Source: Siphonodentalium dalli
Lineage: Eukaryota; Mollusca; Scaphopoda; Gadilida; Siphonodentaliidae
NCBI GenBank assembly: GCA_032622095.1
Contig: CP136065.1
Location: 39,497,503-39,561,502, forward strand
Direction: 5' to 3'
Length of the DNA: 64,000 nucleotides
Under the pieces are notes generated by a model that was given only the letters and a program-made list of their open reading frames with translations, ran no database searches and was not told the DNA's origin. Each line of letters starts with the position of its first letter. Positions within the stretch are counted from its first letter, which is position 1. Both the position numbers and the translations under genes were made by a program. This document shows, in pieces, positions 2,390-64,000 of the stretch.

Positions 2390-2750
2390 GCCGTAAACAC
2401 GGTTGACCACGCTATTAACACGACTTCAACACGGATGACCACGGCGTGCAATCAGATGACCACGGCATGTACACGCCGTGTTCAGACCGTTTTTGAACAC
2501 GCTGGCCATTTTGCCGTAATTGATTACGCTAAGAACACGACTTCAACACGGATGACCACGGTGTGAACTCGGGTGACCACGGCATGTACACGCCGTGTTC
2601 AAACCGTTTTTGAACACGCTGGCCATTTTTCTGAAGTTGACCACGCTAAGACCACGTGCGATTTTTCCGTGTTTTTTCCGTGTTAAAATGTTGGCCACGC
2701 GTGGTTTTGAAAAAAACACGGGCCTTGTACTGTATAAGAGAATGCATGGC
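1856..2750. repeat. degenerate ACCACG/AACACG repeat tract
   Basis: The words GACCACG, AACACG and TTGACCACG recur every 10-25 bases from 1856 to 1945 and again from 2386 to 2700. Within the tract a 56-base block (2458-2513) is repeated almost exactly at 2575-2630; both contain ACACGCCGTGTTC, a short palindrome. The tract looks like an eroded minisatellite with hairpin potential. Confidence 0.7.
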
Positions 2751-3003
2751 ATAATATCTTGTAATAAAATATTGAATAAATATTAAAATTAGGAGCTCCC
2801 TTCTCTTGATCTAATGGTCTAATATTTTATATTCATTTTATTTTAGTAAATGTAATTGGTTTTGGAAAAAAAAATTGAACAAATCTGAAAATTCCCCCCT
2901 CCCAAACCATTGTGGGGACATCCCTTGCGAGAATAGGACATGTGAGATTTATTTGGATGCCTGACTACATTGGCCTAACAATATTTCCTTGACCTTGAAC
3001 CCC

Positions 3004-3040
3004 AGTGCATTCTCTTATATATAAGAGAATGCACTGGCAC
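3004..3040. repeat. short copy of the GCATTCTCTTATATA palindrome
   Basis: An almost perfect palindrome built from GTGCATTCTCTTATATA and its reverse complement. It is the shortest copy of a hairpin module that recurs at 21.5, 39.6, 39.7, 62.1 and 62.3 kb. Half copies lie near 2735 and 22650. Confidence 0.75.
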
Positions 3041-3345
3041 AGGTTCTTTAGGCCACTGTTTTTTTATTAGTTGGTTAGCAGATTTTTTTCTGGAAAAGTT
3101 GGGTCGGTCGGTCGGAAAAAAAAGGAAAACACTCTAATTTCAAATAAAAGGAAAATGGTCTGAAAATAACTTTGTATCATATATATTATCTCACATCTAT
3201 TTTTGGCATCTCAATATACAGCAATATACTTAATCTGACTAGAAAAACAAGGTTGATATATGTTTGTAATCACTTTTAATACTCTTTAAACATAACATAG
3301 CGAAAACAAAAAAACAAAAAAACAAAACTAGATGTTGATTTTAAT

Positions 3346-3503
3346 TGACATTATACAGTATATACATTTTACATACTATATGAATTTAATATAATATAGT
3401 GCCATAGAGGTGTAATATATATGTGAATTTATATTACATCTATGTGGCACTATATTATATCAAATGTGTATAATATGTAAAATATACTCTGCTATAAATG
3501 TCA
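3346..3503. repeat. 158 bp foldback nested in the Harbinger-like element
   Basis: The stretch starts TGACATTATACAGTATAT and ends with its imperfect complement ATATACTCTGCTATAAATGTCA, and the middle folds on TAATATAGTGCCATAGAGGTGTAATAT against ATATTACATCTATGTGGCACTATA. It is a hairpin-type MITE; a target-site duplication is not clear. Confidence 0.65.
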
Positions 3504-9842: not shown

Positions 9843-10053
9843 TGTTAACAGTGGCCTAAATTTGCATGTAACAAATTTACTATTAATCTGGGTACCACGC
9901 ACCACCAGCGTGTATTTCAATTTCGGCTAATTTATGCATGACCTAATGGTTGCATGACTTTCGCGGCTTTCTCTGCAAACGGCACTCCTCACATAACTAT
10001 TCATTGAGTAAGAGATTAAAACTGAATTCTAATAACGACTTGTGTTATTAACA
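9843..10053 (+). repeat. 5' LTR of the Ty3/gypsy element
   Basis: A 211 bp terminal repeat with TG...CA ends and an internal inverted end pair (TGTTAACA / TGTTATTAACA). It should contain the promoter and polyadenylation signals of the element; I can see no clear TATA box in it. Confidence 0.95.
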
Positions 10054-10064
10054 TGGTGGCAGCG
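10054..10064 (+). promoter_or_regulatory. primer-binding site, likely tRNA-Leu
   Basis: TGGTGGCAGCG starts directly after the 5' LTR. It begins with the TGG that pairs to a tRNA CCA end, and the next bases match the complement of a metazoan tRNA-Leu (AAG/UAG type) ending ...CGCTGCCA. The tRNA match is from memory of the human gene. Confidence 0.7.
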
Positions 10065-10127
10065 TTGTCGTTATAACTAAGTACTATAGTTATACACTAT
10101 ACGGACTCATTCCTCACGGATTGTACT

Positions 10128-12848: not shown

Positions 12849-12951
12849 AATTACACTGTTCTTTGAAAACAGGGACACACTGACTGCGAATGATGGAATA
12901 ATACTAAATGGAGAATGAGTCTTCATTCCACGTGCACTCAGGCGGGACATA

Positions 12952-13986
12952 TTGAAGAGATTACACACTGCACACATGGGACTAGATAGCATGCTGAGAA
13001 GAGCTCGAACTACGGTGTTTTGGCCTCGGCTCAAGACAGATGTCAAGCAATTAGTCGACGCGTGCGAAGTGTGCCAAGCACTAAAACCGAGTCAACAGAA
13101 ACAGACACTGAACTTACACCCAATAGGAATTAACCCCTGGGATAAGATCGGTGTGGACATTTGTGAAGTAGATCATAAACAATATCTCATTACAGCTGAC
13201 TATTTCAGCAGCTGGATGGAAGCTGATCAACTGAGTTCGATCACGAGTACACAAGTGATCACCAAACTGAAGAAACATTTCGCAGCTTATGGTATTCCCA
13301 AAATGCTTCATAGTGACAATGGGACACAGTTCACATCTGTTGAATTCCAAACTTTTATGCGCGACTGGGGAGTAATCCACATTACGTCGTCCCCCGGTCA
13401 CCAACAGGCAAACGGCAAAGCTGAGGCTTTCGTGAAAATATTTAAAACTCTCGTCAAAAAGACAATACAGGACAAAACTGACCCATATCTGGCTATATTG
13501 GAGTTACGAAACACACCGAGACAAGACACGAACCTGAGTCCTGCTCAGATGATGTTTGGCCGCAGGACCAGATCGATAATACCGATGATCAGTTGCGAAA
13601 GGGAGAGAAATCCAATAGGTGAGACCAGAAGGGAGACTATAAAAAGAAGGGAGACTATAAAACGGTCATTCGATAAACGGGCGACGACCAGACCACGGAT
13701 GCTAGCCGGCCAATCTGTATATTTTCAACAGCCGACAGACGCCAGATGGCGCAAGGGTGTGGTCGTCGAAGTATTAAACGACCGATCACTTCGGGTTAGG
13801 GACGAGCATGGGACCGTCTATCGAAGAAATACAATTATGGTGCGACCCAGCCCCACAAAATATCGACCCGTGATCGAAGGCGGCGTACCACCAGATGAAG
13901 GCGTACGACCAGATGTCGACATACACACACGGCCACAACGAGATCGTAGACCACCTGCGTGGCTCAAAGACTATGAGTGTGGATAA
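12952..13986 (+). CDS. integrase part of the Ty3/gypsy polyprotein, separated by lesions
   Basis: A 344-residue open frame in the +1 register relative to Gag-Pol. Residues 5-41 form the HHCC zinc domain (H5, H8, C38, C41). The catalytic core has D69, D122 and E158, with exactly 35 residues between the last two, so the D,D-35-E triad is intact. The C-terminal ~100 residues are basic, with WRKGVVVEV and RRNTIMVRP typical of a gypsy integrase C-terminal domain. The same frame can be followed upstream to about 12826, interrupted only by TGA at 12916-12918. The listed ATG is internal and not a natural start; integrase would normally be released from the polyprotein. Confidence 0.9.
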   Translation: MKRLHTAHMGLDSMLRRARTTVFWPRLKTDVKQLVDACEVCQALKPSQQKQTLNLHPIGINPWDKIGVDICEVDHKQYLITADYFSSWMEADQLSSITSTQVITKLKKHFAAYGIPKMLHSDNGTQFTSVEFQTFMRDWGVIHITSSPGHQQANGKAEAFVKIFKTLVKKTIQDKTDPYLAILELRNTPRQDTNLSPAQMMFGRRTRSIIPMISCERERNPIGETRRETIKRRETIKRSFDKRATTRPRMLAGQSVYFQQPTDARWRKGVVVEVLNDRSLRVRDEHGTVYRRNTIMVRPSPTKYRPVIEGGVPPDEGVRPDVDIHTRPQRDRRPPAWLKDYECG

Positions 13987-14201
13987 AACATTTCGTTCAT
14001 TCTGATTTGTACGCGAGGATTATATAACAGCATGGGGGTATTAACCATATATACTTATTTCGGTACTCGCGATATTAATATGTAGCAATTAACAATACAG
14101 GGTTTAGAATACTAATTATCGTTCAAATCGGTATTAACACATTAACCCTCCGCGACGTACGCATTTATTCGGTGCTTTTGCTTATTAATTAATTGCTTAC
14201 T

Positions 14202-14215
14202 AAAAGAAGAAGGGA
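14202..14215 (+). promoter_or_regulatory. polypurine tract of the Ty3/gypsy element
   Basis: AAAAGAAGAAGGGA lies immediately before the 3' LTR, the position where plus-strand DNA synthesis is primed. Confidence 0.85.
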
Positions 14216-14426
14216 TGTTAACAGTGGCCTAAATTTGCATGTAACAAATTTACTATTAATCTGGGTACCACGCACCACCAGCGTGTATTTCAATTTCGGC
14301 TAATTTATGCATGACCTAATGGTTGCATGACTTTCGCGGCTTTCTCTGCAAACGGCACTCCTCACATAACTATTCATTGAGTAAGAGATTAAAACTGAAT
14401 TCTAATAACGACTTGTGTTATTAACA
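14216..14426 (+). repeat. 3' LTR of the Ty3/gypsy element
   Basis: The 211 bp copy matches the 5' LTR at every position I compared, and is followed by the GGTAT target duplication. Confidence 0.95.
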
Positions 14427-15373: not shown

Positions 15374-15587
15374 TTAACCCTTTCAGTGCCAAGTCCGATT
15401 TTTGTATCAACCCATATTTCCTTGATCATTTTTCAATTTTATTGATTATAATAATGTGACACATTGATGGAAAAAGCTCTAGGAGCTCTTTCCATCAATG
15501 TATCACATTATTATAATCCAAAAATTTCAAAAATGATCAAGGCAATATGGGTTGATACAAATATCGGATTTGGCACGAAAAGGTTAA
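15374..15587. mobile_element. piggyBac-type TTAA MITE, 'CAGTGCC' family, copy 1
   Basis: The element starts CCCTTTCAGTGCCAAGTCC after TTAA (15374-15377) and ends with a degraded complement before TTAA (15584-15587). Almost the whole ~206 bp folds on itself around AGCTCTAGGAGCT at the centre. TTAA duplications with CCC(T)n ends are the hallmark of piggyBac; a transposase is not present here. Confidence 0.8.
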
Positions 15588-21483: not shown

Positions 21484-21724
21484 CCCTTTGAGTGCCAGGT
21501 CGATTTTTGTATCAACCCATATACCCTGTGCCAATGAATTCTCTTATATATGCGAGTCGACCATAGGTCGCCTCGCATATATAAGAGAATGCATTGGCCT
21601 AACATTTTTTTTTTTTTAAATTTAAATTTTTTTTTTACAATTTTAATAATTTATTCTTATATTCTTTAACAGACTTATTTTGTAGGTTTAGGGCCGATGA
21701 GATCGGCCCCTGGCACTCAAAGGG
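21484..21724. mobile_element. TTAA MITE carrying the palindromic module
   Basis: The left end CCCTTTGAGTGCCAGG is matched by the right end CCTGGCACTCAAAGGG, followed by TTAA (21725-21728). The left flank reads CTAT instead of TTAA, so that side has mutated. Inside, at about 21526-21598, sits the GCATTCTCTTATATA...TATATAAGAGAATGCATTGG hairpin module shared with the 39.5 and 62.1 kb MITEs. Confidence 0.75.
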
Positions 21725-22198
21725 TTAAATGCTCATGAGACCACCTTTGTGAATGAAAGGGAGTATACCATGCAGTAGTTCATTGTGTAAGTATCTTTTT
21801 AGGGAATATGTATTTTATAATTGAAAATGTTATAATTATTCTTCTGTAAACAATATTCAAGTTGCAACATACATGACCCTACATTGTACAAAACTAAATG
21901 TTTTGATTTTGTTACAAGAGGTAGAGGATGCTTCTGCCAAATGTGGTACAAATATTTGTAATTTTTAAACCCTAATTTCTAAAAACAACATGATATACTT
22001 TGATCCCATGTTCAACCTAATATTTAAAACATTGTGTTCAAACATGTGGCCAGGATATTTGTTAGCCTTCCAGTTATAGTTTCTGTTTGACAGACTGAAT
22101 TCTTGGTGATGACTGAGTTTGTAGGTTTTACCTTAATCTCCTTCAGAATGAACTAATACATTAGATTACAACTCATTGCATGATTTTTCCTTTAACAG

Positions 22199-22450: not shown

Positions 22451-23565
22451 AATACACTTTAGTAAACGAGAGGCCGATCACGATCGGCAAATGTTAACCC
22501 ATCCCTTGGCGATAGTAAATTACTATGATCGGAATCATAAATGAGAGTTTTAGTGTTGAATTATAGAGTATACTGTTATGTCCTATTATAGACAAATGTA
22601 CATAACACAAATTATTGGAATTTATGGGTCACTCGCATTTATATAAGAGATTGCACTGGTACAGCTAAACCACCACAGCCTTGGGTTAAATGTGAAAGGT
22701 GGCCTGGACATGGAATACTTGGGTTAAGAGAGTCCAAGTTAAGTTTAGAATAATAATGTATCAAATTCTACCCACAATATAGTGTACAGATAAGCCAGGT
22801 CACTGCTGACCCATTAATATCAATTATATAGCAGAGCTGTCAACAACTCACAAGAATTGTTTATGTTGAACACTGAATTCTCTATTAAACCAATAACAAT
22901 TATAATGACCTCAGACCATCTGAAGATATCACTCTACAGCACAGATGTCCAGGTCTACTGTTAATACCATGTGATGTTTATTGTTGAATCTTTATTTTAA
23001 ATTAGATACCATAGCTTTCTTTATCAGATTATTTGCACATCAAGTGGCATAAGAGACATCAGAAAATAATATAGTAGTCCGGCCGCCAGGTCACGGATGC
23101 GTGTTTTGGCGTATAAAGTTTTTTTCTCTGCGGATTTGGTAAATTCAGGTATCCGACATCAAGATTTTATCGGCTGGCCATCTGTCAGCCTTGAGCAATT
23201 TATTTTATAGCGCCCTAAAAAGTAGACCCCCACCCCCAAATTTGTAAAACCAGTTACTTGGAATTTGTTGCAAATTCACATGACAAATCTAGTCAAATGT
23301 ATACAAATGTATATATTTTCATGAAGCTAAGACATAATGACACTATTTTGGGCCAAAATTGAAACTCACCATCCAAGATGGCCACCAAAATGGCCGCCGA
23401 AAGTTAAAATATGACATTTTTTCACAAATATCTTCTATATCAGTTCATGCTGTTTGGACCGGGTTGAGTAATATGACTGTATTTTGTATATTAACTGATC
23501 ATTGGAGCAACTAATTATGCAATTATTGGGGTCCTACCGCTTGTGAAGCCACAAGGATCATTCAG
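22451..23565. other. no gene seen
   Basis: AT-rich spacer. A half copy of the palindromic module (TCGCATTTATATAAGAGATTGCACTGG) lies near 22634-22661. A block near 23365-23420 has AAGATGGCC/AATGGCCGCC words like the satellite at 9.5 kb. Confidence 0.5.
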
Positions 23566-30163: not shown

Positions 30164-31343
30164 CAGTCCTTCGATTTTGAGGCGCGCAATTGCGCTTGCG
30201 CGCCTTGGCGCGCGCGGATTTAAAAACCTGCGAGTTATTAAATGCGCACGCCGAAAATTTCAAATGCGCACCTCAGAATTTGCAACCAGTGAACGAGATT
30301 TTAACAAACAACACACCACTGGTCAAACGCCGATAAGACTATCCACCATGTATCTTTCTCAGCAGTGATGACGCTGATTACGAACCTGGTAACTACTAGT
30401 AGTAACATACATTGTGATCGCATTATTACTCGATGAATGAAAACAAACGGCCACCTTCTTGACAATGCGTCATTCAATCTGGGCACCTAATGATATTGAC
30501 CAATGGGACAGTCGGAACACTGAAGAGGAATCAAGCGTCATCATTAAAAATAGGCAGCTAATAATATCGACCAATGAGGACTCGTGTTGCGTCACGTAAT
30601 CGCCACAGTTAATAATATCGGCCAACGATTGAGCAGTATCACGAAATCGGAAACTTATTTATAATAACACGTGATCAGCAGATTCTCCCAGATTAAAAAT
30701 AGAATTGGAAAATCCTCAGAATTCTGCATGCAAACAACTCATTCAGGCGACTTTGTTTCAAATTATTATCTGCGCATTTTTAAATCTAGTTTTTGCAAGG
30801 GACATGCAGTTTTTTTTGTGTGGAAAATTAATAAACGAAGCGGTCCCTAATAATCTCGTACAGGGGGGATTTTTAGCTGAAAATAAATAATCGTACCCGT
30901 ACGCTTATTTGGATCCGAGACTGGTGACGAAACCACGATACTATCAAAGCGAAAGAGGGTTGACTCGTCGGATTCCGGTGAAACTGATTGCGGTAACGAT
31001 TAGGATTCCACTTCCGAGTTTGAAACTTTAAGCGAGTCTGATGGGCATGCGCTCTCAGACGCGGAAGTCGACTAATTACCGTGATCAGATTCATCGGGAT
31101 TGCCGGATTGTTGATGCTATTATCATGTGGACTATTGTACAATATAAACATATGTTTTTTATTTCTGTTTCTGTTGCCACACTTAGAATAATACGTGTGT
31201 ATCATTATACTTGTGTTTGTCTTTATTCAGTAATCATTTCATCGATGTTAATTTGAATTGTGCTCCCTCAAAAAGGCGCGCGCAAATCCCAAAAGCTCCG
31301 AGCGATATACCGCGCACCTACGTTTTCCAAATTCGAAGGACTG
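30164..31343 (+). mobile_element. 1180 bp DNA element, copy 1 (6 bp target duplication CACATT)
   Basis: Begins CAGTCCTTCGATTTTGAGG and ends with the complement CCAAATTCGAAGGACTG, flanked by CACATT on both sides (30158-30163 and 31344-31349). The second copy at 35786-36965 has exactly the same length and differs at only a couple of sites that I noticed (around 30615 and 30632). Next to the left end is a GC palindrome cluster (GGCGCGCAATTGCGC, GGCGCGCGCGG), echoed near the right end (AGGCGCGCGC). Frame 30911-31075 encodes a very acidic Ser/Asp/Glu stretch with one TAG, and SSDDADYEPGN appears near 30362; both look like remains of an acidic transposase N-terminus. Six-base duplications occur in few superfamilies (IS3EU and Dada are known for 6-7), so the superfamily is open. 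Confidence 0.85.
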
Positions 31344-31617
31344 CACATTACACTCGGCAGTTAATTCCATAACTGCACTAAATGTAGTCAAATTGCAGTT
31401 GGATATTCAAAATGCCAGTTCAGCCACATTACCAGTTTACACTGCTGATAACCAGGGTTTGATCCATGTTAACAATACAAATTATGGTTAATGATCCATC
31501 TGAGCTACAGGCCACATCTTTGCCCATCGCGGAGCTTACCCTTTCATCGGTGCTACACATGCTGACCCCAGTCCCCATCCGTAACAGTTCTCATGTGCCG
31601 TTAAAAATTAAACATCA
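31344..31617. other. spacer, nothing seen
   Basis: No gene or named repeat between the 1180 bp element and the tandem family that starts at 31618. Confidence 0.5.
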
Positions 31618-32006: not shown

Positions 32007-34945
32007 ATGAAAGTGTCAATGACACTGTAGCTCAACTTGGAAAGGGAATAATTTAATGTATTACAGTCAATGGAGCCATTAGGAATGTGGAAAGTTGAAT
32101 ATCTAATACATGTTTATAGACATGAAGAGAAAAGTAAAATCCAAGATGGCTGCTGGCGGCCTTGTTTTCGGCCGAATGACCCCAAAATGAGTCATTCCCA
32201 TCTACATGTCATCGTTAACATCCATGACAAATTTTATGACGATCAGACTAAAGGTACGACCTGTAGCCCATGCTAAAGAATTTAGTCATACAAAGAGTAA
32301 AATCCAAGATGGCTGCTGGCGGCCATGTTTTTTGGCCGAATGACCCCAAAATTACTCGTTCCCATCTACATGTCAATATTATCATCCAAGACAAATTTCA
32401 TGATGATCAGAAGAACAGTACGACCTGTGGCCCGTGCTAATGGATTAAATTTTTAAATCCAAGATGGCCGCTGGCGGCCATGTTTTTTGTCCGAATGACC
32501 CCAAAATGACTTGTTCCCATCTACATTCCAATTTCAACAACCATGACAAATTTTATGATGATCAGACTAAAGGAACGACCTGTAGCCCATGCTAAAGGAT
32601 TTAGTCATACAATGAGTAAAATCCAAGATGGCTGCTGGCGGCCATGTTTTTCGGCCGAATGACCTCAAAATGACTCGTTCCCATCTACATGTCATTATTA
32701 ACATTCATGACAAATTTCATGATGATAAGACTAAAGGTACAACCTGTAGCCCGTGCTAAAGGATTTAGTCATACAAAGAATAAAATCCAAGATGGCTGCT
32801 GGCGACCAGGTTTTTTGGCCGAATGACCCCAAAATTACTCGTTCCCATCTACATGTCATTGTTAACATCCATGACACATTTTATGATGATCAGACTAAAG
32901 GTACAACCTGCAGCCCGTGCTAAAGAATTTAGTCATACAAAGAGTAAAATCCAAGATGGCTGCTGGCGGTCATGTTTCTTGGCCGAATGACCCCAAAATT
33001 ACTCGTTCCCATCTACATGTCAATATTATCATCCATGACAAATTTCATGATGATCAGAACAGTACAACCAGTGGCCCGTGCTAATGGATTCAATTTTTTT
33101 ATCCAATATGGCCGCTGGTGGCCATGTTTTTTGTCAGAATGACCCCAAAATAACTCGTTCCCATCTACATTCCAATTTCAACAACCATGACAAATTTTAT
33201 GATGATCAGACTAAAGGTACGACCTGTAGCCCATGCTAAAGGATTTAGTCATACAATGAGTAAAATCCAAGATGGCTGCTGGCGGCCATGTTTTTCGGCC
33301 GAAGGACCTCAAAATGACTCGTTCCCATCTACATGTCATTATTAACATTCATGACAAATTTCATGATGATAAGACTAAAGGTACAACCTGTAGCCCGTGC
33401 TAAAGGATTTAGTCATACAAAGAGTAAAATCCAAGATGGCTGCTGGCGACCAGGTTTTTTGGCCGAATGACCCCAAAATTACTCGTTCCCATCTACATGT
33501 CATTGTTAACATCCATGACACATTTTATGATGATCAGACTAAAGGTACGACCTGCAGCCCGTGCTAAAGAATTTAGTCATACAAAGAGTAAAATCCAAGA
33601 TGGCTGCTGGCGGCCATGTTTTTTGGCCGAATGACCCCAAAATTACACGTTCCCATCTACATGTCAATATTATCATCCATGACAAATTTCATGATGATCA
33701 GAAGAACAGTACAACCAGTGGCCCGTGCTAATGGATTCAATTTTTTAATCCAATATGGCCGCTGGCGGCCATGTTTTTTGTCCGAATGACCCCAAAATGA
33801 CTCGTTCCCATCTACATTCCAATTTCAACAACCATGACAAATTTTATGATGATCAGACTAAAGGTACGACCTGTAGCCCGTGCTAAAGGATTTAGTGATA
33901 CAAAGAGTAAAATCCAAGTTGGCTGCTGGCGGCCATGTTTTTTGGCCGAATGACCCCAAAATGACTAGTTCCCATCTACATGTCATTGTTAACATCCATG
34001 ACACATTTTATGATGATCAGACTAAAGGTACGACCTGCAGCCCGTGCTAAAGAATTTAGTCATACAAAGAGTAAAATCCAAGATGGCTGCTGGCGGTCAT
34101 GTTTTTTGGCCAAATGACCCCAAAATTACTCGTTCCCATCTACATGTCAATATTATCATCCATGACAAATTTCATGATCATCAGACAAACAGTACGACCT
34201 GTGGCCCGTGCTAATGGATTAAATTTTTAAATCCAAGATGGCCGCTGGTGGCCATGTTTTTTGTCAGAATGACCCCAAAATAACTCGTTCCCATCTACAT
34301 TCCAATTTCAACAACCATGACAAATTTTATGATGATCAGACTAAAGGTACGACCTGTAGCCCATGCTAAAGGATTTAGTCATACAAAGAGTAAAATCCAA
34401 GATGGCTGCTGGCGGCCATGTTTTTCGGCCGAATGACCTCAAAATGACTCGTTCCCATCTACATGTCATTATTAACATTCATGACACATTTCATGATGAT
34501 CAGACTAAAGGTACAACCTGTAGCCCGTGCTAAAGAATTTAGTCATACAAAGAGTAAAATCCAAGATGGCTGCTGGCGTCCAGGTTTTTTGGCCGAATGA
34601 CCCGAAAATTACTCGTTCCCATCTACATGTCATTGTTAACATCCATGACACATTTTATGATGATCAGACTAAAGGTACGACCTGTAGCCCGTGCTAATGG
34701 ATTGAATTTTGAAATCCAATATGGCCACTGGCGGCCATGTTTTTTTTTCGAATGACCCCAAAATTAATTATTCTGGTCTAAATGTTGATGTCAACAGGCA
34801 CAGCTATGACAAATTTCATAATGATCCGACGAAAGGTACGACCTGTAGCCTGCATTGTTGACGCCTTACGTACACACGCACACACGGACGACGGACGACA
34901 AAGCCATAGCAATAGCTCAAACTTTACAAAGTAAAGTTGAGCTAA
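32007..34945 (+). mobile_element. pearl-like (Helitron-type) element with 17 tandem monomers
   Basis: Starts ATGAAAGTGTCAATGACACTGTAGC, where GTGTCAATGACAC is a 13-base near-palindrome, and ends in an ACACACG/GACGACGGACGAC microsatellite followed by the hairpin TAGCTCAAACTTTACAAAGTAAAGTTGAGCTA. Between them I count 17 copies of an ~160 bp monomer marked by (AAG/AAT)ATGGC(T/C)GCTGGCGG, TGTCCGAATGACCCCAAAA, TCGTTCCCATCTACAT, CATGACAAATTTTATGATGATCAGAC and GACCTGTAGCCCGTGCTAA. This layout (left end, 160 bp tandem core, microsatellite, hairpin) is that of pearl elements of bivalves, now seen as Helitron/Helentron-derived. No RepHel gene is present, so it is non-autonomous. It sits inside a member of the second tandem family. 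Confidence 0.85.
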
Positions 34946-35785: not shown

Positions 35786-36965
35786 CAGTCCTTCGATTTT
35801 GAGGCGCGCAATTGCGCTTGCGCGCCTTGGCGCGCGCGGATTTAAAAACCTGCGAGTTATTAAATGCGCACGCCGAAAATTTCAAATGCGCACCTCAGAA
35901 TTTGCAACCAGTGAACGAGATTTTAACAAACAACACACCACTGGTCAAACGCCGATAAGACTATCCACCATGTATCTTTCTCAGCAGTGATGACGCTGAT
36001 TACGAACCTGGTAACTACTAGTAGTAACATACATTGTGATCGCATTATTACTCGATGAATGAAAACAAACGGCCACCTTCTTGACAATGCGTCATTCAAT
36101 CTGGGCACCTAATGATATTGACCAATGGGACAGTCGGAACACTGAAGAGGAATCAAGCGTCATCATTAAAAATAGGCAGCTAATAATATCGACCAATGAG
36201 GACTCGTGTTGCGTCACGTAATCGCCACAGTTAATACTATCGGCCAACGAATGAGCAGTATCACGAAATCGGAAACTTATTTATAATAACACGTGATCAG
36301 CAGATTCTCCCAGATTAAAAATAGAATTGGAAAATCCTCAGAATTCTGCATGCAAACAACTCATTCAGGCGACTTTGTTTCAAATTATTATCTGCGCATT
36401 TTTAAATCTAGTTTTTGCAAGGGACATGCAGTTTTTTTTGTGTGGAAAATTAATAAACGAAGCGGTCCCTAATAATCTCGTACAGGGGGGATTTTTAGCT
36501 GAAAATAAATAATCGTACCCGTACGCTTATTTGGATCCGAGACTGGTGACGAAACCACGATACTATCAAAGCGAAAGAGGGTTGACTCGTCGGATTCCGG
36601 TGAAACTGATTGCGGTAACGATTAGGATTCCACTTCCGAGTTTGAAACTTTAAGCGAGTCTGATGGGCATGCGCTCTCAGACGCGGAAGTCGACTAATTA
36701 CCGTGATCAGATTCATCGGGATTGCCGGATTGTTGATGCTATTATCATGTGGACTATTGTACAATATAAACATATGTTTTTTATTTCTGTTTCTGTTGCC
36801 ACACTTAGAATAATACGTGTGTATCATTATACTTGTGTTTGTCTTTATTCAGTAATCATTTCATCGATGTTAATTTGAATTGTGCTCCCTCAAAAAGGCG
36901 CGCGCAAATCCCAAAAGCTCCGAGCGATATACCGCGCACCTACGTTTTCCAAATTCGAAGGACTG
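35786..36965 (+). mobile_element. 1180 bp DNA element, copy 2 (6 bp target duplication CTTAGC)
   Basis: Same orientation and the same 1180-base length as copy 1, with CTTAGC on both sides (35780-35785 and 36966-36971). The different target sequence shows that the two copies are separate insertions and not a segmental duplication. The same acidic coding relic and its TAG are present, so that stop was in the parent element. Confidence 0.87.
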
Positions 36966-36971
36966 CTTAGC

Positions 36972-38676: not shown

Positions 38677-38854
38677 TTAACCCTTTCAGTGCCAAGTCCG
38701 ATTTTTGTATCAACCCATATTTCCTTGATCATTTTTCAAATTTATTGATTATAATAATGTGATACATTGATGGAAAGAGCAATCAATAAATTTTAAAAAT
38801 GATCAAGGAAATATGGGTTGATACAAAAATCGGACTGGGCACTGAAAGGGTTAA
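38677..38854. mobile_element. piggyBac-type TTAA MITE, 'CAGTGCC' family, copy 2
   Basis: A 170 bp element (38681-38850) flanked by TTAA on both sides. It starts CCCTTTCAGTGCCAAGTCC and ends with GGGCACTGAAAGGG. The left 75 bases match copy 1 at 15.4 kb nearly exactly; the centre is shorter. Confidence 0.87.
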
Positions 38855-39529: not shown

Positions 39530-39928
39530 TTAACCCTTTACCCAACAGAAGGGCCCTGTGCCAATGCATTCTCTTATATATGCGAGTCGACCATAGGTCG
39601 CCTCGCATATATAAGAGAATGCATTGGCTTAACACATTAAAAATTATAAATTTTTAAAGAATGTAAGAAAAAATGGTAAAAAGTGTTAAAAAAAGAATTT
39701 TTTTAGGCAAATGCATTCTCTTATATATGCGAGGCGACCTATGGTCGACTCGCATATATAAGAGAATGCATTGGCACAGGGCATAACTGTAACTATCACA
39801 ATGTGGTCAAGGAGCCGGTTCCAATGATATCCATATTTGTATGGTTCTATTGAGACAGACCGAAGATATTTTAGGCTGTTGAAGCTTTATTTGGCCGGTT
39901 TTGGCCGGTTTGTTGGGTAAAGGGTTAA
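39530..39928. mobile_element. TTAA MITE with two opposed palindromic modules, intact copy
   Basis: A 391 bp element between TTAA (39530-39533) and TTAA (39925-39928). Terminal repeats are CCCTTTACCCAACA and TGTTGGGTAAAGGG. It contains two copies of the ~73 bp hairpin module, at 39555-39629 and 39712-39783, in opposite orientation. The second is the exact reverse complement of the first, including the outer GCCCTGTGCC / GGCACAGGGC. Each module is itself a near-palindrome. Also includes CCGGTTTTGGCCGG near the right end. The short minus ORFs here come from the repeat. Confidence 0.87.
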
Positions 39929-43291: not shown

Positions 43292-45624
43292 ATGAAAGTG
43301 TCAATGACACTGTAGCTCAACTTGGAAAGGGAATAATTTAATGTATTACAGTCAATGGAGCGATTAGGAATGTGGAAAGTTGAATGTCTAATACTAGTTT
43401 ATAGACATGAAGAGAAAAGTAAAATCCAAGATGGCTGCTGGCGGCCATGTTTTAGGCCGAATGACCCCAAATTGAGTCGTTCCCATCTACATGTCATCGT
43501 TAATATCCATGACAAATTTTGTGATGATCAGACTAAAGGTACGACCTGCAGCCCGTGCTAAAGAATTTAGACATACAAAGAGTAAAATCCAAGATGGCTG
43601 CTGGCGGCCATGTTTTTTGGCCGAATGACCCCAAAATGACTAGTTCCCATCGTATACATGTCAATATTAACATTCATGACAAATTTTATGATGATCAGAG
43701 TAAAGGTACGAGCTGTAGCCCGTGCTAAAGAATTTAGTCATACAAAGAGTAAAATCCAAGATGGCTGCTGGCGGCCATGTTTTTTGGCCGAATGACCCCA
43801 AAATTACTCGTTCCCATCTATATGTCAATATTAATATCCATGACAAATTTCATGATGATCAGACGAACAGTACGACATGTGGCCTGTGATAATGGATTAA
43901 ATTTTGAAATCCAAGATGGCCGCTGGCGGCCATGTTTTTTATTCAAATGACCCCAAAATGACTCGTTCCCATCTATATTCCAATTTCAACAGCCATGACA
44001 AATTTTATGATGATCAGACTAAAGGTACGACATGTAGCCCGTGCTAAAGGATTTAGTCATACAAAGAGTAAAATCAAAGATGGCTGCTGGCGGCCATATT
44101 TTTTGGCCGAATGACCCCAAATCGACTCGTTCCGATCTACATGTCATTATTAACATTCATGACAAATTTTATGATGATCAGACTAAAGGTACAACCTGTA
44201 GCCCGTGCTAAAGGATTTAGTCATACAAAGAGTAAAATCCAAGATGGCTGCTGGCGGCCATGTTTTTTGTCCGAGTGACCCCAAAATGACTCGTTCCCAT
44301 CTACATTCCAATTTCAACAGCCATGACAAATTTTATGATGATCAGACTAAAGGTACGACCTGTAGCCCGTGCTAAAGGATTTAGTCATACAAAGAGTAAA
44401 ATCAAAGATGGCTGCAGGCGGCCATGTTTTTTGGCCGAATGACCCCAAAATGACTCGTTCCCATCTACATGTCATTATTAACATTCATGACAAATTTTAT
44501 GATGATCAGACTAAAAGTAGGACCTGTAGCCCGTGCTAAAGGATTTAGTCATACAAAGAGTAAAATCCAAGATGGCTGCTGGCGACCATGTTTTTTGGCC
44601 GAATAACCCCAAAATTACTCGTTCCCATCTGCATGTCATTGTTAATATCCATGACAAATTTTGTGATGATCAGACTAAAGGTACGACCTGCAGCCCGTGC
44701 TAAAGAATTTAGTCATACAAAGAGTAAAATCCAAGATGGCTGCTGGCGGCCATGATTTTTGGCCGAATGACCCCAAAATTACTCGTTCCCATCTACATGT
44801 CAATATTATCATCCATGACAAATTTCATGATGATCAGACGAATAGTACGACCTGTGGCCCGTGCTAATGGATTAAATTTTGAAATCCAAGATGGCCGCTG
44901 GCGGCCATGTTTTTTATCCGAGTGCCCACAAAATGACTCGTTCCCATCTACATTCCAATTTCAACAGCCATGACAAATTTTATGATGATCAGACTAAAGG
45001 TACGACCTGTAGCCCGTGCTAAAGGATTTAGTCATACAAAGAGTAAAATTCAAGATGGCTGCTGGCGGCCATGTTTTTTGGCCGAATGACCCCAAAATGA
45101 CTCGTTCCCATCTACATGTCATTATTAACATTCTTGACAAATTTTATGATGATCAGAATAAAAATACGACCTGTAGCCCGTGCTAAAGAATTTAGTCATA
45201 CAAAGAGTAAAATCCAAGATGGCTGCTGGCGGCCATGTTTTTGGACCGAATGACCCCAAAATTACTCGTTCCCATCTACATGTCAATATTAACATCCATG
45301 ACAAATTTCATGATGATCAGACAAACAGTACGGCCTGTAGCCCATGCTAATGGATTGAATTTTGAAATCAAAGATGGCTGCTGGCGGCCATGTTTTTTTT
45401 CCGTATGACCCCAAAATTAATCATTCTGGTCTAAATGTTGATGTCAACAGCTATGACAAATTTCATAATGATCCGACCAAAGGTACGACCTGTAGCCTGC
45501 ATTGTTGACGCCTTACGTACACACGTACACACGCACACACGCGCACACGCACACACGTACACACGGACGACGGACGACAAAGCCATGGCAATAGCTCAAA
45601 CTTTACAAAGTAAAGTTGAGCTAA
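43292..45624 (+). mobile_element. pearl-like (Helitron-type) element with 13 tandem monomers
   Basis: Same left end (ATGAAAGTGTCAATGACACTG) and right end (microsatellite of ACACACG, then GACGACGGACGAC and the TAGCTCAAACTTTAC hairpin) as the 32 kb copy. I count 13 monomers of ~160 bp. The first ~130 bases after the left end and the last ~200 bases match the 32 kb copy closely; monomer number differs, as expected of tandem cores that expand and contract. Confidence 0.87.
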
Positions 45625-46205: not shown

Positions 46206-46460
46206 CCAATTGTTTTATCGCATTCTATGGACAATACAGCCCATTTTCTGACAATTTTGTCACGAAATATAATTTGGTATTTCAACAACATCGTGTTTTT
46301 TCAAATCACGGAATTTGCCGGTGAAGAAACGGCGCGACTCGTTTGTTTGTGAACTTATAAATAACTGTAAATAATGCAACCTGCTTTAATGAATGACATT
46401 AGTTCGCTTTATTTAATCATGTTTTTTGCGTAAAAACCGAGGCCTATCATCTCCCCAGCA

Positions 46461-46910
46461 GGTTAGAAGGAACTAAATGTTTTTCATAGGCCACAGTGTT
46501 AACGTTTGACCACGCCCACGCTAAATTTTCGAGTTCCGAAGTGCACGATGCATGCGTTCGTAAAGACCAACCCTTTCGGAATCTGTTCGCACATAGGAGT
46601 ACCTTTCGAGCCACGCCTTTTTTAAAAACCAGCATATGTTTTCCACACTACCCCACTTTTTGCACAGAATTTGACAGTCTGACGAAAGCCAATACACAGC
46701 CTCAATATCCCGCCATTGTTTGGACACGAACGCATTTCAGACTAGGAAACGCCCACGTTTTTACATGCTATGGGTATTATATTTCTTGAATTTGTAAAAT
46801 TATTTGACATATTGTACGCCAATCGCGCGCCAGAATTTTTTAAACTCGTATTCGAGATACCCTGTAAAAACAAAAGGGACGTAATTCTACTTATTTAGTT
46901 CCTTCTAACC
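46461..46910 (+). mobile_element. 450 bp MITE, copy 1
   Basis: Starts GGTTAGAAGGAACTAAAT and ends ATTTAGTTCCTTCTAACC, perfect 18-base inverted ends. The interior has no ORF that I believe; the 97- and 68-codon ORFs on the two strands recur in copy 2 because the DNA does. Left flank ends AGCA; right flank starts TTAAG. Confidence 0.8.
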
Positions 46911-47799
46911 TTAAGAGATGTGCAAACATGACCCTATGTAATTCCTACTACCTCTGCGTGAAGCTGTGTCATATCTATGCTAAATAAAACTGATTTTACA
47001 CATTTCTTTGTTCTCGTTCCCCAGCAATCATGGTTATTTTAACCCCACTGTATCTGAAGATGGTTGATCTACTGGGGAAATTTTGGTGGAAATTTGTCCA
47101 TTCGTTGCCAATGATGGGAACGTCCCTTCCTAAATAAAAGAATTAATAGTTGGGAATTGATCAGTACTGTCTGCAGTTCAACATAAAAAATTATGGGTGT
47201 CTCGGGGTCATCTCATGCCGAGATTTGCCATATTTGGGAAAATTCTTAAAATATGTGGAAATTTTGGTAAAATTTGGTAATTAAACTAACAGAAGGTGCC
47301 TTTAATGGGCATGAAGCGCATGTATATAGCGGCATAGACAATACGTGCAAATCATGTTTCAGATGATATGCTTAGTTGACCAAAATTGTCCGGGTTTCTG
47401 AATAAATAGTTAGATTTTTACACCCCACCCCCCTTGCATCAGGAAGATAGGAATTTCCAAGTGGTCGACAAGTTGGCAGCTGCATGGTTAAAAATACTCG
47501 AGACATCAAGTTTATGATGATGGTCAGATGTCACAAATAGATAAAGATATCGATGTGAGGTTATTTCTCTCTTAAAGTGGCACACCAGATACAGAATAAC
47601 GATAAATAAATGAAAATCTCACTAAGGTTATTAGGTGCAAATATTCCCCACTTCCTGAAAAATGGCAATAAAATCCAAATTCTGGCGTAATGTAATGTCT
47701 AACTATGTATGCTTCGCAAATCAGATCACAATTATGTCATTTTTCACCACCTTTGTCCATCATAAGCCGAAATACGAAAAATTCGATTTTTCTGCTTTA
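46911..47799. other. 889 bp between the two MITE copies
   Basis: Single-copy-looking AT-rich DNA without a gene. It would be the inner part of a composite unit if the MITE pair moved together. Confidence 0.5.
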
Positions 47800-48249
47800 G
47801 GTTAGAAGGAACTAAATGTTTTCCATAGGCCACAGTGTTAACGTTTGACCACGCCCACGCTAAATTTTCGAGTTCCGAAGTGCACGATGCATGCGTTCGT
47901 AAAGACCAACCCTTTCGGAATCTGTTCGCACATAGGAGTACCTTTCGAGCCACGCCTTTTTTAAAAACCAGCATATGTTTTCCACTCTACCCCACTTTTT
48001 GCACAGAATTTGACAGTCTGACGAAAGCCAATACACAGCCTCAATATCCCGCCATTGTTTGGACACGAACGCATTTCAGACTAGGAAACGCCCACGTTTT
48101 TACATGCTATGGGTATTATATTTCTTGAATTTGTAAAATTATTTGACATATTATACGCCAATCGCGCGCCAGAATTTTTTAAACTCGTATTCGAGATACC
48201 CTGTAAAAACGAAAGGGACGTAATTCTACTTATTTAGTTCCTTCTAACC
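47800..48249 (+). mobile_element. 450 bp MITE, copy 2
   Basis: Same length, orientation and ends as copy 1, with about four differences seen in 450 bases. Left flank ends CTTTA; right flank starts AGCA. Thus AGCA lies outside both copies, before copy 1 and after copy 2. Confidence 0.8.
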
Positions 48250-55825: not shown

Positions 55826-56521
55826 TGCAAAGAAAGCTACCATTAAATAACAAACTTCTCCAGTCATTATCTGCCATAGACCCAGTGGGCATTCCAACAC
55901 ACAGAATTTGTTGACCAGATTGGTAACACACATGCCAAATGTGTTAAGTGAAGTCCAGCAAGAGGAATACATGCTTGAAGTGAGACGCTACCAATTTGAC
56001 CCCACCATACCAGAGTATGAGGATGACAGTAGAATTGACCACTGGTGGGCCAAAGTTGGTGAAACAGGAAGATACCCAAATCTAACGAAGACTGTTTATG
56101 CTTGTCTCTCCCGTTTCCATGGACCTCAAGTCAAATCAAGTTTTAATATTATGGGAGATGTCATGGACAAGAAATCGTCAAGAATGCAGGTGTCAACCTA
56201 TAGTGACATACAATGTGTCAAGTACTTTCTGAGGTCACAGAAGAAATCAGCTGTAGATTTCTTTTCATCCAATGATTTTATTCATGATTCTGTTGACCCT
56301 GCATTGACAAAGAATCTCCAATACACTGGAGCTACAAGAAGCACAAACTTGAACTAAAGGTCATGAAGCAGCAGAAAGCAGCTGAGAGTGGTGTTACTAA
56401 ACAAACATGTAATGTTCCATCAAAGAGGAAAGCTAATTATAAATACACCTGTATTGACCCCTTTATACAGCTAGGAAAGTCCCACCTTAATAGTGTTCTG
56501 GGTTCAGATTGGGACCATTAA
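55826..56521 (+). CDS. hAT-like gene, C-terminal dimerisation part
   Basis: Begins right after the duplicated CCAAACTC with KLPLNNKLLQSLSAIDPVGI, then a frame change near 55905. The main frame (to about 56330) gives EVRRYQFDP, DHWWAKVGETGRYPNLTK, CLSRFHGPQVKSSFNIM and a closing helix, typical of the hAT C-terminal domain in this gene type. A further frame change near 56330 joins a basic tail (YKKHKLELKVMKQQK) ending at TAA 56519-56521. Confidence 0.7.
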
Positions 56522-59120: not shown

Positions 59121-60536
59121 ATTGACGGGCGATTGTGTCGATCGATTGTCATCTCAATGGTCACAGATGCTCCCGCATGGTGTCTAATGATGAACTTTAT
59201 TCAGTTCAATGGACACTATGGTTGCAAGCCTTGAAATAGTGTGTCTGTCATTTGCAGAATGAGGTTCCCAGAGGGACCTCATTCTGCAAATGACAAGACA
59301 CCCTATTTCAAGGCTTGTATGGTTGTCCATGTTGTTATGCTCCAGGCATTAAAACAAAAGTGAGTGCGACTGGTTATGCAAGAACTTATCCATTTGATGA
59401 ATCATCACAAACTGGGCATGCTATGCTAAGAACGGAGACATAAACTGATAAAATCGCCAAGTTTTCTGAGAAACATTCTGCCAATTGAATGTAATCGATT
59501 GCTGTCCATACGACCTTCGCACTTCGTGACCCGATCGGCGAGATCATTCGAAGATGTGAAACATTGGAAGGCTTCTGAATTTCGGACATTTCTCCTATTC
59601 TTCTCTTATCCTGTTCTGTTTAGAATTCTACCAGAAAGGTTTTTGGAGCATTGGATGCTTCTTGTACGTTCAATTCAAATTCTCAGTTCCACATGCATTT
59701 CCAAGACTAAATTGGGTTACGTTCAGTTGTCTTTGAAGCTGTTTTGCTTACAGGTTAAGGAGCTTTATCCAGCGAAAACTTGTACATTCAACTTCCATTG
59801 CTTGCTACACCTTGCAGACAAAGTAAGACAGCTTGGCCCTTTGTGGACACAAAGCTGTTTCTATTTTGAAGACTTTAATGGGGAGTTGCGACACTTGTTC
59901 CATGGAACGCAATGTGTAGAAATGCAGATTATGACATCTGTTCTCGGGCAACAAAGGATTCCAAGCCTTGCTATAGATCTTATTTCTGGAAGTAAGGTGC
60001 AGAAGTTTTATATGCAGATGATGAACAGACCTCGGTTATCTTCAAACAGGCAACAGATTGCACCAAATACATTCATATTAGGTGCTGTAAAGGCTGTACA
60101 ATCACTAGATTCTTCTCTCCATCATGCTTTAACACAAATTCTTCAATTTCAAATGCCCTGTCAATCATTCAATCGCATTTTACACAATGGTGTTGTCATA
60201 CATTCTTCTGATTATTCTTTAGTTAACATTCATCAGAGAAACAGTTTTACTGTCAAATATGGTGATAACATGTATGGCCAAATTCAGGTATTTGTTGAAT
60301 ATACAGATGTACGTAGTGAGCAAAAATGTTATTTAGCCATTGTTAAAAATTTGACTGCCATGCAGCGTCCACAACATGCACCTTCATATATGCAGCTGGT
60401 GTCACATACGCATGACGTTGTAGCCATACCTGTAGCTGAGATCACCAATTTGTGTTTTTATATTTGCACAGATGATGCAACTGGCAACAACTGTTATGTG
60501 ATGGAAAGTCTTGATACAGTTGAGTGTGATGCATAA
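59121..60536 (+). pseudogene. EnSpm/CACTA-type transposase, C-terminal half, broken
   Basis: A first part near 59157-59224 encodes MVTDAPAWCLMMNFIQFNGHYGC, the 'DAPA...QFNGxYGC' signature of the tnp2-type transposase domain. It is cut by a 93 bp MITE, then resumes with YGCPCCYAPGIKTKVSATGYARTYPF. A stop (59439 region) and frame changes follow. From 59556 a long frame (to TAA 60536) gives HWKASEFRTFLLFFSYPVLFRILPERF, NFHCLLHLADKVRQLGPLW, and FEDFNGELRHLFHGTQ, the DUF4218-type C-terminal domain found in EnSpm and similar animal elements. About 330 residues are open. The N-terminal half and CACTA-type ends are not in view. Confidence 0.75.
59225..59317. mobile_element. 93 bp palindromic MITE with perfect 8 bp target duplication
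   Basis: TATGGTTG flanks both sides (59217-59224 and 59318-59325). The element is one near-perfect hairpin: CAAGCCTTGAAATAG...TTTGCAGAATGAGGT, a ~10-base loop, then ACCTCATTCTGCAAATGACAAGACACCCTATTTCAAGGCTTG. The host reading frame (FNGHYGC) continues correctly after the second target copy. Eight-base duplications suggest the hAT or P superfamilies. Confidence 0.88.
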
Positions 60537-60867: not shown

Positions 60868-61863
60868 GTGAGAAATTGATTAATTCTCTATTACCATATG
60901 TGCACAAAAAATAACCACTGACACTGCTCTGTACTTGCCATTCGACCTCGGTTTCAAAGTATGTATGTGGACACTTGCTGTGGCATTAGGGGTGTATACA
61001 TCAGCAGATTGATTTGTGTTGCCATGGCTTGATATCTGTCATCCATGTGTGTGCGCTTTGGAGATGTTCATCAACAATTTCCATTTGCACGTGCTACAGG
61101 TCGTACCTTTGGTCAGATCATTATGAGATTTGTCATGGCTGTTGACATTGACATGTAGATGGGAATGAGTCATTTTGCGGTCATGCGACCACAAAACATG
61201 GCTGCTGGTGGCCATCTTGGATTTCAAAATTAAATCAATCGGCGCGGGCTACAGGTCGTACTATTCGTCTGATCATCATGAAATTTGTCATGGATGTTAA
61301 TATTGAAATGTCATTTTGGGGTCGTTCGGCCAAAAAAAAATGGCCGCCAGCAGCCATCTTGGATTTTACTCTTTGCATGACTAAATCCTTTGGCACAGGT
61401 TAGACATTTCAATTAGCACCTTTCCTATTCCTCCATTTACTGTCAACCATTAAATTATTCCCCTACCAAATTTGAGCTACAGTGTCATTGACACTTTCAT
61501 TTAGTAAGATCAGCTCATTTGGTTGAGGTCATCCTGTAATTCCAGTTGGTCAAAGTTGGGTACAGCATACTAAAAATTCCTAGAAAAGGTGACCACGTGC
61601 TTTATATTGTACTTCTTGATTTTGGAGAGCTATGTACATGTACGCATCTATAATATATGTCAATATTTAACAAATTTGCATTGTTTTCACTAACAAATAA
61701 CATTGTGATTTTAAAACAACATTCAATTGTTTTATTCACTAACAAATATTACATTGTGATTTTAAAACAACATTCACTTTGCAAAGCACATGCATGCACA
61801 TCTGTTTGTATATAAAATCAATTGTTATTAATATTATTATTCATTGGTTAATTTAACTTTCAG
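60868..61863 (+). other. intron of the HECT-like gene, holding a reversed pearl copy
   Basis: Both splice sites are good and phases match on each side. The intron contains a short pearl-like element at 61018-61500 and otherwise AT-rich DNA, including a duplicated ACATTGTGATTTTAAAACAACATTCA at about 61702 and 61751. Confidence 0.45.
61018..61500 (-). mobile_element. pearl-like element, third copy, two monomers, reversed
   Basis: Read on the minus strand, it starts at 61500 with ATGAAAGTGTCAATGACACTGTAGC. Two monomers follow (ATCCAAGATGGCTGCTGGCGG-type and AATCCAAGATGGCCACCAG-type), then the right part, which is eroded to a trace of CCATGGC near 61025. The 5' end is fully kept, while the core is cut down to two monomers, the shortest of the three copies (17, 13, 2). 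Confidence 0.8.
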
Positions 61864-62063: not shown

Positions 62064-62395
62064 TTAACCCTTTACCCAACAGAACGGCCCTGTGCCAATG
62101 CATTCTCTTATATATGCGAGTCGACCATAGGTCGCCTCGCATATATAAGAGAATGCATTGGCTTAACACATTAAAAATTATAAAATTGTTAAAGAATGTA
62201 AGAAAAAATGGTAAAAAGTGTTAAAAAAAGATTTTTTTTAGACCAATGCATTCTCTTATATATGCGAGGCGACCTATGGTCGACTCGCATATATAAGAGA
62301 ATGCATTGGCACAGGGCATAACTGTAACCATCACAATGTGGGCAATGAGCCGGTTCCAATGATATCCATATTTGTATGGTTTTATTGAGACAGAC
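62064..62395. mobile_element. TTAA MITE with two opposed palindromic modules, 3' truncated copy
   Basis: Starts TTAA (62064-62067) then CCCTTTACCCAACAGAA, and matches the 39.5 kb copy through both hairpin modules (62092-62161 and 62246-62317) and on to GAGACAGACC. At about 62395 the match stops at a G run and unrelated sequence begins, so the right inverted repeat is lost. It lies in the intron after the last HECT-like exon. Confidence 0.83.
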
Positions 62396-64000
62396 CCAGG
62401 GGGGGGTCTGGAAAAAAATTGCACATATAGGGCCCAAAAAGTTTTTTTCCGACCTCGAGGGACCCACCACCCCATTTTTGCAAAAAAAATATTTTTTTCC
62501 TCCAAAATTTTGGGGACCCACCCCCCGTTTCTCATGTTTTTATCAAAATTTCAGAGGTTTTTTTTAGCCGTTCTTCAATAACTGTGTTAACTGCCTTACT
62601 AATTGGTAAACACAGATCATAAAAACGAAAAATATACTGTATTTCCATGTGTTTCCTGGTGTTTTCAGTATCTAACAACACTATTAATTAAGCATTGTGT
62701 AGGTACTAGTACACTATATGTCACAAATTGCCCTAGACCCCATTATAGACTTAATATATCGAGTGTGTTGTGTCTGACAGAGAACACTGGCCAGTGTAAA
62801 TAGTGGTAAACAGGTCAGGGGTTCCACAATTATATGTGCATGATCAAAGAACTCTTTAGTCTTATCCAACGGGATGGGGTGGGGAGGGGAATTGTTTTTT
62901 GGTTAGGTATACACATATATATATGGTTATTATACTGCCCGATATTAGTCGGCGGGTATATAGTTGACGTCTCGAGCCGTCTGTCCGTACAAACATTTTG
63001 AATTTTAACTCAAGAGTCAGTTGTCATATTTGATGCCCTATGGCATGGTGACGGACAAGAAATGGGGGACGAATATGCATACTATTGCGTGTTGTGACCA
63101 CCAATGCCTACCACAGTTATGGGCCCTGTTCGACTTTAAGAAATTCAGTCCATACAAAGTTTTTGCAATATAAGTTAAGTGTCGGTTGTCAAATTTTGAT
63201 GTGGTTTGGTATGGTGATAGACCAGAATGAAGAATTGAATGTCATTTCTCAATGCATCTGAATGCATCACATTATTTCAGTTCATCTATTTGTAATTGAT
63301 GACAGTATTTTAGTTTCGTCTTGTTGGGCAGTAAAGCTCCCAGATGAAGTTCGGAAATTCAATGAGAATAGCGTCACCTTCATTTGGATTGTCTGAGCAG
63401 TAAACAGTAATGTCATTCATCATAACCAATTCAGTTTTATTTGGATAATTGTTGCAAATTAACATTACTTGCAATCATTCAAGATGAGAAATAACCAGAA
63501 GAAATGAATTTTATTAGATGCCAGAACAAGACAGTATTTCAGACATTAGAAATTTATGAGATACCCTTTTCAATTTCATGTTATGCAACAATCAGGTTAA
63601 TTATATCTACTAGTAGTCATCATTGAGTATTCACCATGTAGTATCCAATTTGTGATATAGTTTTTTTGTTTTATTACTTTTATTCAGATAATACAACTGG
63701 GTAATATATTAATTTTGTTACTAAATATTTCTTCCGTTGATCATAAGTTTCCTGAACGTTAATACGGTGGTCCACTATGAAGTGGTCCGGGATACTGTGA
63801 AATCCAGAATGTTGCTAAATCTGAGGCTAAAGAGTCACTTTAGCTGCCTATATAGCCCTATACCAACAAGCATGTTACTAACATGCTTACAAACAACATT
63901 ACATGGTCAGTACTTGTAAATTGTTTGAAAAAAACCCATTTTGGAAAAAATTTACAAGCACCATTTTTTCCGCCTCTGGACCACCCACCCACCCCGACCC
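62396..64000. other. no gene; T/C-rich block and weak repeats
   Basis: 62396-62570 alternates G/C runs and T/A runs (GGACCCACC, CCAAAATTTTGG) and may be an eroded repeat; 63925-64000 has similar CCACCCACCC and AAATTT words. At 62998-63260 two diverged ~160 bp units share AGT(C/G)(A/G)GTTGTCA, TTTGATG and GGCATGGTGA/TGGTATGGTGAT. I see no further exon of the HECT-like gene. Confidence 0.4.

Follow-up and report, generated by a model that had tools for sequence, protein, structure and literature searches.

The main feature of the 64-kb stretch of DNA analysed here (the window) is a 399-bp element of the TTAA type, MITE P, which lies at 39.5 kb and carries within it two hairpin modules in mutually inverted orientation, an arrangement that had been claimed in the initial annotation and that is confirmed by the repeat coordinates, by folding and by a hairpin scan. 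TTAA, the site characteristic of a piggyBac-type MITE, is present at both ends (starting at 39530 and at 39928), and the 26-nt TIRs, which are 88% complementary to one another, show the terminal motif CC[C/T]T given in PMC2872659, as do those of a second element in the window, MITE Q (P reading CCCTTTACCCAACA and Q CCCTTTGAGTGCCAGG). Each module consists of two 33-nt arms and a 3-nt loop, the arms being 97% complementary in the left module (39L) and 94% in the right (39R); the earlier description of a 73-bp near-palindrome is thus right as to its nature but not as to its size, the palindrome proper being 69 bp. The two modules lie in a pair of 80-nt arms separated by 70 nt, and these arms are indeed inverted relative to one another, although at 98% complementarity the inversion is not the exact one that had been stated.

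Both complete elements are short (399 bp for P, 241 bp for Q) and non-coding, in that neither is overlapped by any of the 28 stop-to-stop open reading frames of at least 110 amino acids found in the window; one such frame, on the minus strand at 62189-62539, overlaps a truncated copy of P and extends beyond that copy. Among the 10 of these 28 frames that were scanned with Pfam none contains a piggyBac transposase domain, and the end sequences that would mark a possible autonomous piggyBac-type relative are CCCTTTACCCAACA or CCCTTTGAGTGCC. It was also considered whether the nested unit at 39553-39782 might be a complete MITE in its own right lying inside P, but this was rejected because its flanks (AGAAGG and ATAACT) show no target duplication and because Q has only half of it. 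An assembly artefact is thought unlikely, since the modules recur at three places with different surroundings.

Copies of the module elsewhere in the window are collected with the parts of MITE P in Table 1. The double structure does recur at 62.1 kb, as had been noted, in a second copy of P that has lost its right end and has TTAA at the left only. Likewise, the single module reported at 21.5 kb does lie in a different TTAA-type MITE, namely Q, whose TIRs differ from those of P and whose module is 98.6% identical to 39L (68/69); Q is flanked by TTAA on the right (21725-21728) and on the left by CTAT, taken as a decayed TTAA, so that the intact site is found on one side. The short palindrome at 3.0 kb is, as claimed, outside any recognised TTAA element, the nearest TTAACCC or GGGTTAA being at 9391 in a search for exact motifs, which passes over decayed ends.

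Table 1. Module-bearing elements, their parts and related features in the window (positions from the first nucleotide of the window).
Feature	Position	Strand	Remarks
Half-module relic with inner flank	2722..2788	+	Score 44.0; 0/500 shuffles
Shortened perfect palindrome, 36 bp	3002..3037		CACAGG outer flank, one side
Almost fully palindromic TTAA MITE	15374..15587		Ends resemble left end of Q
MITE Q, different TTAA-type MITE, 241 bp	21484..21724	+	TIR CCCTTTGAGTGCCAGG
Single complete module in MITE Q	21530..21598	+	46 bp from Q left end
Half-module, not palindromic	22627..22664	-	Outer edge 18 bp from GGGTTAA at 22683
Second palindromic TTAA MITE, family of the 15374..15587 element	38677..38854		
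MITE P, complete copy, 399 bp	39530..39928	+	26-nt TIRs, both ends beginning TTAACCCTTTACCCAACA
Left 80-nt arm of nested palindrome (CCCTGTG + module + inner flank)	39553..39632	+	98% complementary to 39703-39782
Left hairpin module (39L), 69 bp, 33-nt arms, loop ATA	39560..39628	+	30 bp from left end
A/T-rich spacer between P modules	39629..39706		Reverse complement resembles inner flank of 21.5-kb module
Right 80-nt arm of nested palindrome	39703..39782	-	98% complementary to 39553-39632
Right hairpin module (39R), inverted, 69 bp	39707..39775	-	153 bp from right end
MITE P, second copy, lacking its right end	62064..62396	+	97.0% over 333 bp to 39530-39861; sequence thereafter differs
Left module of second copy (62L)	62094..62162	+	100% over 69 bp to 39L; 30 bp from end
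Right module of second copy (62R)	62242..62310	-	100% over 68 bp

Two half-modules, at 22.6 kb and at 2.7 kb, were not among the copies listed in the initial annotation. For each of the regions 2690-2800, 22480-22730 and 2960-3060 the match score was reached by none of 500 shuffles. In the case of the 2.7-kb relic, however, the A/T-rich flank part of the match is weak, because a tile at 5171 that is A/T-rich but unrelated also reaches 44.5; when its inner flank was compared separately, 18/500 shuffles reached the score against 39L, 317/500 against 39R and 272/500 against Q. The 22.6-kb half-module stands at nearly the same distance from GGGTTAA (18 bp) as do 39L and 62L (19 bp), and with nine occurrences of GGGTTAA on the plus strand a fit within 2 bp would be expected by chance with a probability of about 0.0007, a figure to be read in the knowledge that the motif was picked after it had been seen. 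A TTAA element at 22.6 kb with its other end at 22494 is possible but weak as a candidate; TTAACCC occurs 12 times on the plus strand. The sample is small, comprising five complete modules carried by three MITE copies in one 64-kb window.

The hairpins are not a matter of chance. A hairpin scan of the window found 10 hairpins with a score of at least 18, six of which belong to the double-hairpin unit, while in all three order-1 resamples of the window there was none with a score of even 15 or more. The computed DNA fold of MITE P has an energy of -131.3 kcal/mol, as against a mean of -39.0 for shuffled sequences (z = -21.4; none of 100 shuffles as good). Two mutually exclusive pairings are available to the 230-bp nested unit, namely arm to arm (-103.0 kcal/mol, computed) or as local hairpins (-79.6 kcal/mol, computed with the base-pair span limited to 80 and with the small hairpins of the spacer included).

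All five complete modules are built in the same order, which is CCCTGTG, an arm, the T of a T/C mismatch, the loop ATA, the C of the mismatch, the other arm and YTAA, and in all five CCCTGTG points to the outside of the MITE. Because the one-sided flank, the loop and the orientation of the mismatch are common to all five, the unit is directional, and it consists of CCCTGTG, the 69-bp quasi-palindrome, and YTAA with an A/T-rich inner flank. CCTGTG is also found at the 3.0-kb palindrome and, in the diverged form GCTGTA, at 22.6 kb. The distance from the module to the nearer end of the MITE is not constant (Table 1), so that the term ‘subterminal’ is hardly apt for the right module of P.

The likeness between P and Q is not confined to the module, but passes it on both sides, with TATRCCCTGTG outside and A/T-rich spacer inside. 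For the inner flanks (the first 75 nt of each), local alignment of Q with P in the orientation of the right arm gave scores reached by only 3/1000 shuffles for the 39.5-kb copy and 0/1000 for that at 62.1 kb, as against 253/1000 and 916/1000 in the orientation of the left arm; global alignment gave a weaker result than local (7/1000 and 30/1000 shuffles reaching the score). A tile of the Q spacer without the module scores 58.5 against P, where no unrelated tile in the window exceeds 44.5. With Q cut at 21655 the spacer alignment has 44 identities, 12 mismatches and 6 gapped columns, and longer alignments open a gap of some 18 bp beyond the module, followed by a shared TTCTTAYATTCTTTAACA, although in this A/T-rich sequence the register varies with the gap costs chosen. 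The P and Q families thus have in common a segment that extends beyond the module, support for its A/T-rich portion being moderate.

This bears directly on the proposal of the initial annotation that the module is an independent mobile or amplified hairpin that entered several MITEs; on this reading it would be like the mitochondrial double-hairpin elements and would have inserted elsewhere as well. In its favour, the module does occur in more than one MITE family, as had been claimed, there being two with different TIRs as well as a shortened form outside any recognised TTAA element, so that the result named in the initial annotation as refuting the proposal, confinement to one MITE family, did not emerge; moreover, the right arms of P are identical to Q at 67 of the 69 positions of the module, the spacer being less alike. 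However, independent entry into the MITEs is not supported, given the continuation of homology past the module on both sides and the constancy of the flank CCCTGTG, the loop and the mismatch at the complete modules, and the target duplication of its own that had been suggested as something to look for is not visible, on inspection of the flanks by eye, at the borders of any of the five complete modules. An independently mobile hairpin is therefore thought unlikely, and the module is probably best regarded as a directional unit of piggyBac-type TTAA MITEs. The mitochondrial double-hairpin and repetitive hairpin elements resemble it in being repeated short hairpins, described as mobile or invading (PMC4478555, PMC2800124), but they are organellar, whereas the present hairpin is tied to transposon ends and has constant flanks.

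Searches of sequence collections yielded little. Six patterns gave no hits in viral_contigs, and in genome_contigs two loci in bacterial MAGs match a 19-mer, with flanks that appear unlike by eye, where 1.9 such matches would be expected by chance (257 billion bases, two strands, 4^19); both collections are unlikely to hold an animal repeat. MITE P had no match among plasmids and phages.

How strongly the module is conserved relative to its surroundings depends on which copies are compared. Between families, the right arms of P differ from Q at 2/69 positions of the module, while the aligned spacer differs at 12/56 and 14/56 positions (8-14 of 52-68 under other gap costs); the module is thus better kept than the spacer, with Fisher p-values of 0.0003 to 0.019 according to the alignment, which are only a guide since alignment columns are not independent where T runs slip. 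Within family P no significant extra conservation of the module was found (2/138 against 8/195 columns differing, p = 0.20). As for the arms, the changes in 39R, 62R and the 21.5-kb module are one-sided. Both arms of the 3.0-kb palindrome (CCAGTG / CACTGG) depart from those of the MITE modules, which may fit copying of one arm from the other by replication template switching, a mechanism set out in PMC8794818; the change may be old, since the 22.6-kb half-module carries the same G.

The contrast between module and spacer is also what would be expected if ectopic gene conversion or recombination within near-identical palindromes had carried the module between MITE families already in existence, the module having neither mobility of its own nor any function in transposition. 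Identity falls at the inner edge of the module, from 67/69 within it to about 75-85% in the aligned spacer, and the left end of Q (about 40-45 bp) is like that of the palindromic family at 15.4 and 38.7 kb and then passes after CAACCCATAT into module sequence, as it would in a recombinant. Yet the inner flank is also related between the families, and the three MITE copies of two families provide no direct sign of conversion tracts, so that this explanation is considered rather unlikely.

A further alternative is that the hairpin is kept for RNA processing, as a source of miRNA or siRNA, for which there is a precedent in the Made1 MITEs that gave rise to hsa-mir-548 (PMC1784062). Made1 is likewise a near-perfect palindrome giving a stable RNA hairpin, and with two TIRs of 37 bp and a further 6 bp it is similar in size to the module, but in Made1 the palindrome makes up the entire MITE, which is related to Hsmar1 (PMC1784062), whereas the present one lies within a larger TTAA MITE. 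As RNA the three complete modules that were folded form very stable hairpins, with energies between -48.4 and -55.5 kcal/mol, and the 3.0-kb form reaches -31.4 kcal/mol; below the curated thresholds Rfam gives 24 matches with E values of up to 1, most of them to miRNA precursor families, the best being to MIR841 (88.3 bits, E = 4.6e-19, threshold 200) and spanning both modules. At the gathering score, however, Rfam gives no match in the whole window, so that membership in a described miRNA family was rejected, and the weak matches fall in many unrelated families, as those of any long hairpin would. In addition, the 22.6-kb half-module folds as RNA no better than shuffled sequences (125/200 as good), and the one-sided arm changes noted above also count against retention for RNA processing, which appears very improbable.

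The closest published precedent found is that of the CMITEs of the coral Acropora. These TTAA MITEs have TIRs of the CCCTTT type that differ among them, together with an internal region of 75 bp, its origin given as unknown, which is more conserved than the TIRs (PMC2872659). The likeness lies in the TTAA target, in TIRs that differ between families and in an internal region better conserved than these (PMC2872659), and the same pattern is found here, the region common to P and Q being better conserved than their differing TIRs. In contrast, the CMITEs are of only about 100 bp, their internal region has another sequence, and no paired inverted 69-bp palindromes are described in the part of PMC2872659 consulted. 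The 60-bp published CMITE consensus folds into short hairpins only, and at E = 0.36 the closest match to it in the window does not indicate homology; given this lack of homology to the internal consensus, the present unit resembles the CMITEs in kind but is not assigned as one. The nested palindrome is then a variant of this precedent, and what is new relative to it is that the palindrome is large and directional and is present twice in inverted orientation. The statement that no element of this form had been described consequently stands for the nested palindrome, which was not found in a TTAA MITE among the matches listed from the full-text literature (repeat databases such as Repbase and most subscription papers being outside this search), but not for TTAA MITEs with a shared internal region, of which the CMITEs are an instance (PMC2872659).

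What the module might do is suggested by the piggyBac and piggyBat transposases, whose cysteine-rich domains bind palindromes near the transposon ends (PMC11707139). The TTAA site and the presence of palindromes near the ends are features in common with those systems (PMC11707139), although the piggyBat palindrome is short (bp 19-30, PMC11707139) and the putative binding site here is 69 bp. Extending palindrome binding to the present module is a guess made by analogy, but the module could perhaps be a binding or folding site used by a transposase, and a single transposase used in common would explain why it is kept above its surroundings in MITEs with different TIRs.

If the module is taken as a directional unit of such MITEs, its history may be pictured in two main steps. 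An ancestral half-sequence near a transposon end would have been duplicated in inverted form by replication template switching, giving the hairpin, and later this hairpin together with its outer flank would have been copied inversely across the spacer, giving the 80-nt arms of P. The hairpin probably predates the arms, since both arms of P carry the T/C mismatch and the ATA loop in mirrored form; the right arm is suggested to be the older and the left probably arose from it later, since the Q spacer resembles the right-arm orientation. The 3.0-kb form could have arisen if the tip of the hairpin was deleted between short ATAT repeats. That inverted duplication may be common for these elements here is suggested by the two palindromic TTAA MITEs at 15.4 and 38.7 kb. 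MITE P can in this respect be seen as a small case of the stepwise building of a palindrome.

A bolder version, which we regard as quite improbable, would make the module a portable palindromic ‘passport’ with a one-sided flank, acquired by MITEs with unrelated TIRs through template switching, conversion or mobility of its own, giving them access to a common TTAA transposase and kept near-perfect by replication template switching. The work on the coral CMITEs left open how MITEs that are alike only in their outermost bases find a transposase, and also why some MITEs share internal regions across families (PMC2872659). The window shows a CMITE-like pattern in another sequence, in which the common part is a directional palindrome, and this leads to a testable suggestion, namely that an internal region shared in this way serves for transposase binding or for folding and is not passenger DNA.

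Several other repeats are present in the window. A direct duplication of 1181 bp (30164-31344 and 35786-36966) is 99.8% identical between its copies, and arrays of a 164-bp tandem repeat, to which a period of about 483 bp can also be fitted, occupy 32130-34850 and 43415-45497, with a short related inverted copy at 61080-61402. An LTR retrotransposon at 9843-14426, with reverse transcriptase, RNase H and integrase domains, which from the domain order we take to be Gypsy-like, is probably a recent insertion, since its two 211-bp direct repeats are 100% identical. Two further direct repeats of 451 bp (46460-46910 and 47799-48249, 99.1% identical and 1339 bp apart from start to start) could be the LTRs of a short element. 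A hAT C-terminal dimerisation region at 55851-56354 (Pfam E = 7.5e-5) is likely the relic of a hAT transposon. Three other long hairpins (3366-3483, 1144-1257 and 59225-59317) are possibly foldback MITEs of other kinds, while a lone TTAACCCTTTCAATACCG end at 55497, followed by the short hairpin GAATGGATGCGCCCATTC, is a possible end of another piggyBac-type element.
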